Positions 31,295 to 39,634 of a stretch of 64,000 nucleotides of DNA are shown one piece after another. The stretch covers positions 620,001 to 684,000 of the forward strand of contig PBIO01000014.1 of the NCBI GenBank assembly GCA_002720865.1. Reading direction: 5' to 3'. A program made the position numbers and the translations under genes. How positions within the stretch are numbered: position 1 is the first letter of the stretch; each line of letters begins with the position of its first letter. A model generated the notes under the pieces. It made no database searches. It saw only the letters and a program-made list of their open reading frames with translations, and had not been told where the DNA came from. Source of the stretch: Halobacteriovorax sp. (lineage in GTDB: Bacteria; Bdellovibrionota; Bacteriovoracia; Bacteriovoracales; Bacteriovoracaceae).

Positions 31295-32719
31295 TTAATT
31301 GCGTCTTAATACAGGAATTTTTGCCCCTAAAATTAAGGCAAGGGTTGTACAGAGAATACCGGCATAGAGTTCATCAATATTGGCCCAAAAACCGGTGTGT
31401 GTTGCGTTGCGCCAGTAACTTGTTCCTATGACGCCAACCACACAGGCAAAGACGAACTGACGATCTTTGATTTTTCCCGGGAACATATAGCCGTACATAA
31501 CCGGTAAAAGAAGACAGGCAGCACTATAAGATCCAAGAGTCTTCCAGACTGTTTTTATATTACCCTCAAAAATTAGGGCCATGACAATTGATAAAAGACC
31601 AACGGAAGCCACGCCGATATGGTGAAGGATTGGTTTTCCTTTGTATTTTTCTGGGACCAAGTCGTAACTTACGGTGGTGCCTGCTAAGAAAAGGTAACTA
31701 TCTAGGGTAGAAAGAATGGTCGCTAGAATTCCAGCTAAAACAAAGCCTCTTACACCCGGTGGAAGAATTTGAAGGGCATAAGTGAGGTAAGCATTCTCAC
31801 TGGCTGCTTCTGGAATAACCGCCTTAGCGTACATGGCACCAAAGGTTGTACAAATATCAAAGCAAAACCAAACAAAAGTTGAGATTAGAATTCCTTTTTT
31901 CGCAATCTTTGGTGACTTTGCTGCAAAAACTCTTTGATAGAAATTTGGATCTACTAAAGTTGATAGGGCTATAAAGCCCCAAACTAAAGTGGTCGCAATG
32001 GGGTATCCTCCCGTGAGACTAAAGTGATTTGCGGGAAGATTTTTTTGAAGGAATCCAAGCCCTCCGAAAGTTCCAACAGAAATCGCCAAAATTAGAAAAA
32101 CCCCAAGGCACATAACAAAGAATTGTATTAAGTCAGAAAAAACAACGGCCCTAAAACCACCCATCATCGAATAGGCAATAACGATGAGAACGCCGCCAAA
32201 CATATTAAGCCAAAGCTCTCCTCCGAAAAGAAGTTGGCTAAAAAGTCCAAGACTAATTGTGTAAGCAATAGGTAGGACATTAAAGAAATTAAAGATACCG
32301 CTTAGCTTCGCTGAATTTGGACCAAACATCTTTCCTATAAGATCAGGTAAAGTAACGGCCTTATAGGACTGAATTCGACTGATAATTAAAAATGCAAAGA
32401 GGATATAGGCCACGTACCAAAAAAGCCCCTGAGTAACAAAATTATAGAGACCTGATTCAAATGCTATTTTTGTGACTCCAAAAATCCCCCCATACCAAGT
32501 GGCCACGAGGGTGGCGATAAATAGTGGAAGAGTTAACTGACGACCCATTAAGAGTAAGTCTAAAAAATTAGCCTTTTCATTGGACTCATCAACCTCGTCG
32601 CTTTTTTTAAGCTGACCATAAACGACAGAGCCAATTGTAATAATAAGGACAATAAAAAAGACCACCCAATCAAGGGTGGTCAAAACTTCTGAATATTCAA
32701 TTGATGTTTTAAGTGACAT
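31295..32719 (-). CDS. Sodium:solute symporter (SSS) family transporter, candidate thiamine transporter
   Basis: 474 residues with about 13 hydrophobic segments. SSS hallmarks include WYGGIFGVTKIAFESGLYNF, YSMMGGFRAVVFSDLIQFFVM and the Na-site-like ATILSTLDSYLFLAGTT. A TPP riboswitch immediately upstream makes thiamine, or a precursor such as HMP, the likely cargo; SSS proteins under THI-box control have been proposed before as thiamine transporters. No thiamine biosynthesis gene is nearby, fitting salvage from prey. The Shine-Dalgarno GGGAG belongs to the 3' edge of the aptamer. Confidence 0.9.
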   Translation of the reverse strand: MSLKTSIEYSEVLTTLDWVVFFIVLIITIGSVVYGQLKKSDEVDESNEKANFLDLLLMGRQLTLPLFIATLVATWYGGIFGVTKIAFESGLYNFVTQGLFWYVAYILFAFLIISRIQSYKAVTLPDLIGKMFGPNSAKLSGIFNFFNVLPIAYTISLGLFSQLLFGGELWLNMFGGVLIVIAYSMMGGFRAVVFSDLIQFFVMCLGVFLILAISVGTFGGLGFLQKNLPANHFSLTGGYPIATTLVWGFIALSTLVDPNFYQRVFAAKSPKIAKKGILISTFVWFCFDICTTFGAMYAKAVIPEAASENAYLTYALQILPPGVRGFVLAGILATILSTLDSYLFLAGTTVSYDLVPEKYKGKPILHHIGVASVGLLSIVMALIFEGNIKTVWKTLGSYSAACLLLPVMYGYMFPGKIKDRQFVFACVVGVIGTSYWRNATHTGFWANIDELYAGILCTTLALILGAKIPVLRRN

Positions 32720-32812
32720 TTAATCTCCCTACGTCGGCATTATCCGAATCAAGTTAAAGGGTCGTGGTTTTCCACCTCTCAGCCTCTATTAAATCGGCTC
32801 CCCTGATTTGCA
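32720..32812 (-). promoter_or_regulatory. TPP (thiamin pyrophosphate) riboswitch
   Basis: Minus-strand reading gives the THI-box blocks in order. GGGGAGCC is followed by GGCTGAGAGGTGG, then ACCCTTTAACTTGATTCGG, then ATAATGCCGACGTAGGGA. The P1 ends AATC and GATT are complementary. The closing stem ends at the ribosome-binding site GGGAGATT, and the symporter ATG follows. There is no room for a separate terminator, so TPP binding probably blocks translation. Confidence 0.93.
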
Positions 32813-32845
32813 TGTCTTATAGTTTAACAGCTTTTCTTTAACAAG

Positions 32846-37692: not shown

Positions 37693-37814
37693 ATGAATTG
37701 AATCCTTTGAAAGTTGCCTGCATATCCTAGTTTAAATTTTATCAAATTCATAATGGAGAACGAAGAAGGTAAAAATTGTTTGGTAATAATTGAGATCCGT
37801 GTTATTTTGCTCCT

Positions 37815-37871
37815 ATGAATAGGGAATTCTGTATCTATATTCAAGTAATTACCACCATCATCACCCCGTAG
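37815..37871 (+). CDS. Thr/Ile leader peptide of the threonyl-tRNA synthetase gene
   Basis: An 18-codon ORF encodes MNREFCIYIQVITTIITP and stops with TAG. Six consecutive codons, ATT ACC ACC ATC ATC ACC, are Ile or Thr; overall five are Ile and three Thr. The stop codon lies in the loop of a terminator hairpin whose left arm is the last codons. A ThrRS gene starts 103 nt downstream. This is the layout of amino-acid attenuation, as in the enterobacterial thr leader. No good Shine-Dalgarno is visible, which is the main weakness. Confidence 0.7.
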   Translation: MNREFCIYIQVITTIITP

Positions 37872-37887
37872 GGGGTCATTCTTTTTT
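37860..37887 (+). terminator. Attenuator terminator before the threonyl-tRNA synthetase gene
   Basis: ATCACCCC (37860-37867) pairs with GGGGTCAT (37872-37879) over seven of eight positions around loop GTAG. Six T residues follow at 37882-37887. No plus-strand gene other than the leader lies upstream to need a terminator. A ribosome stalled on the Thr/Ile codons would cover the left arm and let transcription continue. Confidence 0.72.
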
Positions 37888-37974
37888 ATTACTAAATTCA
37901 TAATGATGTCTTATTTGAGAAAATTGCTCAGATAGGAATTTTATTTAATTTTTTTAGACTCGATGGAGGCGAAT

Positions 37975-39213
37975 ATGGATTCGTACGTCAAAAATATAGA
38001 TCATCGGAGGTTAGGTGAAGAACTAGACCTCTATAGCTTTTATGAGGAAGCACCGGGCTGTCCTTTTTATCATCCCAAGGGAATTTTCTTACGGGAGTAT
38101 TTGATTAGGAGATGGAGATTGCTCCATCAAAAAAATAACTATAAGGAGATTATCTCACCTCAACTGATGAAAGAAGAGCTTTGGGAAAAATCTGGTCATA
38201 GTGATTTGTTTTCTGAACTAATGTTTTATTCTTCAGATGGAGAATCAAAGTTAGCGCTTAAGCCAATGAGCTGTCCTGGAGCCATTCTTTTTTATAAAAG
38301 AAAGCTCAAAAGCTATAAAGACCTTCCTGTTAGGTTATGTGAGCTTGGACATGTGCATAGGAATGAACCTTCTGGAGCGAGGAATGGACTTTTAAGGGCC
38401 AGAAGTTTTGTTCAAGATGATGCTCATATCTTTTGCTCAGAGAAAATGGTGAAAGATGAGCTCCAGAAAATTTTAAATCTTGCCCGTGAGCTCCTAGCTA
38501 GCTTTGGATTTAAAGATTTTTATTTTGAAATTTCACTGCGAGATTACTCTAAGCAAGGTAAGTATCTTGGTAAAGATAGTATGTGGATAAAACTAGAAAA
38601 TATTCTAGTGGAGTTAATGGAAGAAAATGATCTTTCTTATGTTAAGAAGCATGGAGAGGCCAAATTTTATGGTCCATCTCTAGACCTTCACTTAAAAGAT
38701 TCTAATGGCAATAATTGGCAATGCTCATCGGTTCAAATCGATTTTAATCTACCAAAGAGATTTGATGTTTCCTTTATCAACGAAAAAGGAGAAAAAGAAA
38801 TTCCGATTTTAATTCATCGAGCACTTTATGGTTCACTTGAAAGATTCCTTGGAATTCTTGTTGAGCACTATGAAGGCGTCTTTCCATTTGCGATGAGTCC
38901 GATACAATTTAGGATTGCTCCCATTAATCAAGAACAGCATTCTTATGCTAGGGAAGTTGAAAGTAAATTGGAGAAAATGGGGTTTAGAGTTGAGGTTGAT
39001 GATAGGAGTATTTCTTTTTCTAAAAAAGTTCGAAATTTTTATTCTTCAAAAGAGCCTTACTTGATAATTGTTGGAAAGTCGGAAATGGAAAAGGGTTTAA
39101 TAAGCTTTAGATCAAGATCCGGAGCCTTAAAAAAAGAGATCGACTTAAGTGAACTTCTTAAGGATGGTGGTGACAGCAATCATCCGCTTTTTGGCTATCA
39201 CGATGAATCTTAA
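37975..39213 (+). CDS. Threonyl-tRNA synthetase lacking TGS and editing domains
   Basis: 412 residues from the ATG at 37975 (GGAGG 5 nt upstream); the ATG at 37963 would include that site. Standard ThrRS is ~640 residues with N-terminal TGS and editing domains; here the protein starts at the catalytic core. The zinc ligands are present in KPMSCPG (Cys), QDDAHIFC (His) and HRALYGSLERF (His), and motif 2 arginine in HRNEPSGA. The anticodon domain is at ~305-395. It should charge tRNA-Thr but cannot clear Ser-tRNA-Thr itself. It may be an inducible paralogue. The 3' end overlaps the MerC-like gene by 56 nt. Confidence 0.88.
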   Translation: MDSYVKNIDHRRLGEELDLYSFYEEAPGCPFYHPKGIFLREYLIRRWRLLHQKNNYKEIISPQLMKEELWEKSGHSDLFSELMFYSSDGESKLALKPMSCPGAILFYKRKLKSYKDLPVRLCELGHVHRNEPSGARNGLLRARSFVQDDAHIFCSEKMVKDELQKILNLARELLASFGFKDFYFEISLRDYSKQGKYLGKDSMWIKLENILVELMEENDLSYVKKHGEAKFYGPSLDLHLKDSNGNNWQCSSVQIDFNLPKRFDVSFINEKGEKEIPILIHRALYGSLERFLGILVEHYEGVFPFAMSPIQFRIAPINQEQHSYAREVESKLEKMGFRVEVDDRSISFSKKVRNFYSSKEPYLIIVGKSEMEKGLISFRSRSGALKKEIDLSELLKDGGDSNHPLFGYHDES

Positions 39214-39634
39214 TATTAAGCCAGTGCCCGGCCATAAGGATAACAGAACCGATAACATTTATGATGGTATCGAGGTAATGAAAATGTTCTTGGTTGTGGG
39301 CGTGAAAATCACCTTCGGCTATTTTCCATCCATGCCCAGGGCTTAATAAAGCTAAGCATAAGACTAAGATTCCTATGGTTCCAAGAATCATAGGAGTCTT
39401 ATTTCGATGATTTTTATAAAAACGCCAAAAGGTAAAATAGGCCACAGGAACAATAAATAAAAAGATACCTAGATGCGACCATTTTGAATCAAAGAAATGC
39501 GCCACCATTGGGCTAAACATTATAAGAAAGGGAGTGGCTATGCAGTGTATAACACAGAGTCCCGAAAGGACGATTCCCACCTTATCCAAAGATTGGGTTT
39601 GTACATAGTCTTCTGATTCTTGCTCTATTTTCAT
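39158..39634 (-). CDS. MerC-domain membrane protein
   Basis: 158 residues with four hydrophobic segments. GLCVIHCIATPFLIMFSP is the MerC signature, including the CxxxC-like Cys-His-Cys in the first helix. A His-rich loop (DFHAHNQEHFHYLD) and tail (DDCCHHHP) could bind metal. MerC proteins of mer operons import Hg(II), but free-standing members in bacteria without merA, as here, have an unknown metal or role. The gene overlaps the convergent ThrRS gene by 56 nt. Confidence 0.82.
   Translation of the reverse strand: MKIEQESEDYVQTQSLDKVGIVLSGLCVIHCIATPFLIMFSPMVAHFFDSKWSHLGIFLFIVPVAYFTFWRFYKNHRNKTPMILGTIGILVLCLALLSPGHGWKIAEGDFHAHNQEHFHYLDTIINVIGSVILMAGHWLNIKIHRDSQKADDCCHHHP

Follow-up and report, generated by a model that had tools for sequence, protein, structure and literature searches.

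A putative leaderless threonine attenuator upstream of a spare, core-only threonyl-tRNA synthetase in Halobacteriovorax and its relatives

In the 64,000-nt stretch of Halobacteriovorax sp. DNA analyzed here (the window), a second, short threonyl-tRNA synthetase (ThrRS) gene is preceded by a compact element that is probably a threonine-responsive, ribosome-mediated attenuator controlling this spare, core-only enzyme by trp-type 1:2/2:3/3:4 logic. Comparison with its counterparts across the phylum makes it very probable that the element works like a ribosome-mediated leader-peptide attenuator; we do not place it as a strict terminator-based attenuator, because a canonical terminator was looked for and, in most loci, was absent. 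A sequence-only reading of this region had described an 18-codon ORF with a Thr/Ile run, a TAG in a hairpin loop, a T6 tract and a ThrRS start 103 nt further on, all of which are present where it placed them; the short, second-copy nature of the ThrRS, the hairpin at 37909-37937 and the promoter abutting the leader ATG were not part of it. The locus is laid out as follows (type-1 relatives are described below):

37780..37785, plus strand: -35-like hexamer TTGGTA, with a 17-nt spacer to the -10; position kept in 9/9 type-1 relatives with upstream sequence
37803..37808, plus strand: -10 hexamer TATTTT, whose 3' end lies 6 nt upstream of the leader ATG; the predicted +1 is the ATG or adjoins it
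37815..37871, plus strand: leader ORF, predicted to be leaderless, 18 codons plus TAG, MNREFCIYIQVITTIITP; counterparts in 35 compiled loci
37848..37865, plus strand: regulatory codons ATT ACC ACC ATC ATC ACC (leader codons 12-17), in which the conserved signal is threonine
37869-37871, plus strand: leader stop TAG, in the loop of hairpin 1
37863..37876, plus strand: hairpin 1 (segments 1:2), ACCCC-GTAG-GGGGT, predicted by folding, with pairing-consistent changes in relatives
37882..37887, plus strand: T6, five bases 3' of the hairpin 1 stem, weak as an intrinsic terminator
37909..37937, plus strand: hairpin 2 (3:4), predicted, with an 11-bp stem and a T-rich stretch after it; in most relatives it lies about 20 nt nearer the leader stop
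37965..37969, plus strand: Shine-Dalgarno sequence GGAGG of the ThrRS gene, five bases before ATG 37975
37975..39213, plus strand: second, short ThrRS gene, with catalytic core and anticodon-binding domain only

The likely ThrRS start, ATG 37975, lies 103 nt from the leader stop; an alternative, longer ORF starts at 37963, within GGAGG; ATG 37975 is the better start, and the protein is 412-416 aa long depending on the choice. It matches the NCBIfam profile thrS (TIGR00418) only from profile position 165-169, and its only Pfam domains are PF00587 and PF03129, without the TGS domain or the editing region. A full-length ThrRS of 589 aa is encoded elsewhere in the genome (G000:C27). The gene that the sequence-only reading took to be ThrRS does encode one, and its predicted product is a spare second ThrRS, not the housekeeping enzyme. 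By analogy with the crystallized E. coli core construct, to which it corresponds, the short protein should be capable of charging tRNA but lacks the editing region. Elsewhere in the window, a MerC-domain gene (39158-39634, minus strand) is convergent with the short ThrRS gene and overlaps its 3' end by ∼56 nt, an arrangement also present in G001; a zinc (Zur) role was considered on account of this neighbor. A TPP riboswitch at 32709-32814 (minus strand) scores above the gathering threshold.

Related leaders were compiled across the phylum in front of 35 short (∼400-aa) ThrRS genes; three further loci (G237, G231 and G190) were inspected by eye and excluded from the statistics, and the G256 locus begins at a contig edge. 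The leaders are 16-22 codons long, and threonine accounts for 106/245 of their last seven codons compared with 0/339 of the earlier ones, counts that come from rows sharing descent and are not independent events. Each leader carries two to five Thr codons within its last seven. This conserved Thr run with diverging flanks is what would be expected of a leader peptide tuning ThrRS to Thr-tRNA charging, as the sequence-only reading had proposed. Its second proposed signal, isoleucine, falls away: the run shows no enrichment of Ile (24/245 codons compared with 47/339 before it), and threonine alone is therefore the signal. The Thr codons of the 35 leaders are mostly ACC (88, with 8 ACG, 6 ACT and 4 ACA), whereas across twelve window genes 33 of 155 Thr codons are ACC. 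The stop codons are TAG in 25 loci, TAA in nine and TGA in one, and 30/35 loci have the stop within a hairpin loop closed by a CCC(C)/GGG(G) stem; in some others (G152, G232, G210, G211 and G217) it is just 3' of hairpin 1, the G152 leader CCTCAGGGGTAA having a sense codon as its loop triplet and the stop directly after. A chance ORF is ruled out by the recurrence of the leader, the stop-in-loop hairpin and the promoter spacing before dozens of orthologous or analogous genes; by this comparison the predicted leader ORF is real.

The promoter is placed with the same regularity. In the nine type-1 loci with upstream sequence, the -10 box always ends 6-7 nt 5' of the ATG, and the mean promoter score at that gap is 8.4 versus 3.25 ± 0.84; when 34 loci are taken together, a gap of 6-7 nt has a mean of 6.7 compared with 3.0 ± 0.4 at other gaps. 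At a gap of 6-7 nt, which most loci have, there is no room for a Shine-Dalgarno sequence, which explains why the leaders have none. The missing Shine-Dalgarno sequence, correctly noted in the sequence-only reading, is thus no weakness of the proposal: from the predicted promoter and start site, the leader is probably translated from a leaderless mRNA.

The leader accompanies two kinds of short ThrRS. A profile built from three short ThrRSs and searched against 369 other genomes of the phylum yielded ten clear members of one kind (type 1), all in one family. These proteins are 45-81% identical to the window protein and form a clade of their own, with support 100/100, that excludes every full-length enzyme used, and all their loci have a leader ORF with terminal Thr codons and a hairpin with the stop in its loop. 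Two sequence models of the leader itself (R1 and R2), searched in the family and in all 369 other genomes, matched five genomes of genus g14 as well as, in two other families, G158, G161 and G236. All R2 matches with E ≤ 1e-3, spread over 18 genomes, are upstream of short-kind ThrRS genes, the ThrRS frame running off the contig in G236 and being broken in G070. The ThrRSs of g14, G158, G161 and G236 belong to a second lineage (type 2), unrelated to type 1, that groups with a Lysinibacillus enzyme (SH-aLRT 96); searching with a profile of this lineage brought up about 26 short ThrRSs from several families, nearly all with the leader. The same predicted leader would control two unrelated lineages of short ThrRS. 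The sole return of a genome-contig scan was a full-length Lysinibacillus ThrRS. Among Klebsiella plasmids, 569 records show some degree of match to the ThrRS query; L106, the record examined, encodes a full-length enzyme, beside a metal ABC transporter gene.

The 1:2 and 3:4 hairpins are well supported by folding and comparison. Hairpin 1 is nearly invariant across relatives, and the changes seen are consistent with pairing: a C-G pair is replaced by U-G in G069, and in G070 by U-A, with the stop changed from TAG to TAA, and in G065 both arms are shortened together. Formal covariation is not above that of shuffled alignments (95/500), because the stem hardly varies. Hairpin 2 starts ∼15-24 nt 3' of the stop in most loci and 40 nt in the window, and its sequence differs greatly among loci; over 30 representatives its region folds better than shuffled sequences (Stouffer z -10.2), in a test with a fixed window that largely misses the hairpin of the window locus. 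Masking segment 1 lets segment 2 pair instead with segment 3, which forms the left arm of hairpin 2 (Stouffer z -4.2). This alternative 2:3 pairing is strong in G024, G145, G062, G161 and G236; G149, G089, G186, G171 and, by the computation, G152 and G232 show little or none of it. In the window locus, where hairpin 2 is displaced, the duplex amounts to just -1.9 kcal/mol. Several smaller features were seen nearby. A motif, CACATT or GCATTTTTT, recurs ∼6-16 nt 3' of hairpin 2, and in G065, G066, G069 and G070 a third small hairpin of varying sequence (GGCG/CGCC, GACG/CGTC, GCGA/TCGC) adjoins the ThrRS Shine-Dalgarno sequence. Sequestration of that sequence by the Thr run, present in the fold of the window locus, is not conserved in relatives and was rejected.

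These features suggest an arrangement in which the spare enzyme is turned on when charged Thr-tRNA is short. Transcription would start at or next to the leader ATG, and the 16-22-codon leader would be translated leaderless. With ample charged Thr-tRNA(Thr), the ribosome would pass the Thr codons, reach the stop and cover hairpin 1; hairpin 2, just past its leading edge, would then form, and the spare ThrRS would be held down. When charged Thr-tRNA is scarce, through threonine shortage or because the housekeeping ThrRS is inhibited or damaged, the ribosome would stall on the Thr codons and cover segment 1, so that the GGGG of segment 2 could form the 2:3 pairing with hairpin 2's left arm, and the spare ThrRS would be expressed. 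There is good support for threonine sensing through ribosome stalling; we infer the stalling event itself, the 2:3 switch and transcription termination as the output, the candidates for which include termination aided by NusA, NusG or Rho, or some other step.

The output is where the most serious alternative enters. The same threonine sensing could act through Rho-dependent termination, RNA polymerase pausing, mRNA decay at the T-runs after the hairpins, or translation control, rather than through a trp-type switch. The leader is conserved, yet canonical terminators are lacking: a canonical hairpin plus U-tract before the ThrRS gene is absent in most loci, the exception being hairpin 2 of G001, the only one of the loci scored whose terminator score is not low. 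In most loci no canonical U-tract directly follows hairpin 2, and in many a run of five or more T's starts 6-16 nt later. The leader ORFs are C-rich and G-poor, as are Rho sites, and in several type-2 loci a hairpin abuts the Shine-Dalgarno sequence. No conserved pairing with that sequence was found, however, and the 2:3 signal favors alternative hairpins; we regard these outputs as unlikely replacements for the trp-type switch.

Less probable again is the mechanism put forward in the sequence-only reading, in which hairpin 1 and T6 form an intrinsic terminator whose left arm is occluded by a ribosome stalled on the Thr codons. Direct occlusion of a terminator by the ribosome is known from pyrBI and ampC; judging from geometry, a stall at the Thr codons would cover 37863-37867, and a hairpin with a nearby T-run is also found in G001, G059 and G145. 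The hairpin itself makes a poor terminator. Its T-tract is set back 5-12 nt from the stem, and its d'Aubenton-type score is -22.9 (hairpin 2 of the window, -33); five strong hairpins found in the same window, whose T-tracts adjoin the stem, reach 31-49. Among relatives the T-tract is poor in G089, G136, G060, G149 and G024, with none usable in G089 and G136. On these grounds we rejected hairpin 1 as a canonical intrinsic terminator. Occlusion would moreover leave the conserved hairpin 2 unexplained, and a ribosome at the stop codon would block hairpin 1 too. What the geometry does fit is a 1:2 hairpin whose loop holds the stop, with hairpin 2 after it.

It is highly improbable that hairpin 1 is a tRNA mimic through which ThrRS represses its own synthesis, with the short ORF incidental, as in E. 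coli thrS (autoregulation of E. coli ThrRS is cited in PMC2965389), since the stops, the start position and the Thr codons (ACC, ACA, ACT, ACG) are conserved as coding features and the element is common to two unrelated ThrRS lineages. No known Rfam element was found at the leader site, and a T-box was rejected: the covariance model RF00230 had no match in the genome or the window and did match the positive controls L104 and L110.

A broader version of the attenuator reading, which we hold only tentatively, is that the leaderless threonine attenuator is a portable cassette, which became attached to two unrelated lineages of core-only ThrRS, making them inhibitor- or starvation-inducible spares, and which is read out through a hairpin-spacer-T-run element with no canonical terminator. 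No conserved gene neighborhood was found among the type-1 genera; the flanking genes differ, which argues that leader and gene move as a unit. All ten type-1 enzymes carry an invariant GEAKFYGP in an active-site loop; at this position most of the full-length enzymes examined have GDGAFYGP or GEGAFYGP. The loop adjoins Tyr462 and Gly463 of E. coli ThrRS (our own numbering). In the E. coli enzyme, rigidifying changes at the Tyr462/Gly463 loop give resistance to obafluorin and borrelidin, and Ala460 borders the pocket (PMC11252418). Gly463 is kept in type 1, and the GEAKFYGP signature is absent from type 2; inhibitor tolerance of the type-1 enzymes is only a suggestion from these residues.

The trp attenuator has its stop codon in the 1:2 hairpin loop, and the present element shares with the trp, his, thr and pheST attenuators its regulatory codons, this position of the stop and the potential 2:3 and 3:4 hairpins; it differs from them in its predicted leaderless start and in being very compact, with no canonical intrinsic terminator detected. 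Part of this was already known. A leaderless leader of 18 aa with Thr codons, likewise without a clear terminator, has been proposed before thrS in Streptomyces lividans (thrL); the excerpt of that work on which we draw (PMC8079986) gives it two Thr only, annotated in a single species and before thrS rather than a core-only second copy, and describes no stop-in-loop hairpin. Attenuators of leuS and trpS are known in Streptomyces (PMC1262725), and a His leader precedes hisS paralogues of bacilli (PMC2965389); these too place a leader peptide before an aminoacyl-tRNA synthetase gene, duplicated in the case of bacillar hisS, but involve other amino acids and other phyla. The leader RNA of S. meliloti trpL likewise begins at the leader-ORF ATG, although it serves a tryptophan biosynthesis gene and has a known terminator (PMC7298713). 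The Anabaena T2 ThrRS is also an inducible second ThrRS with impaired editing, but its induction is by low zinc and its editing domain is degenerate, not absent (PMC4787780). Tandem T-boxes before thrS in Bacillota also sense tRNA(Thr) charging, by direct tRNA binding and with no leader peptide; a core-only ThrRS (about 401 aa) on a plasmid of Cytobacillus spongiae (L104, NZ_CP089998.1) lies under two of them and is a parallel solution in that phylum. Our literature search found no leaderless attenuator described in the phylum studied here, to which the present element adds a conserved, putative one that would couple threonine-tRNA starvation to a spare ThrRS lacking the editing region. With no terminator of the usual kind, it also opens the action of terminator-less attenuators, noted in Streptomyces too, to direct testing, and it places one regulatory element before two unrelated versions of one enzyme, much as T-boxes serve the similar gene of Bacillota.
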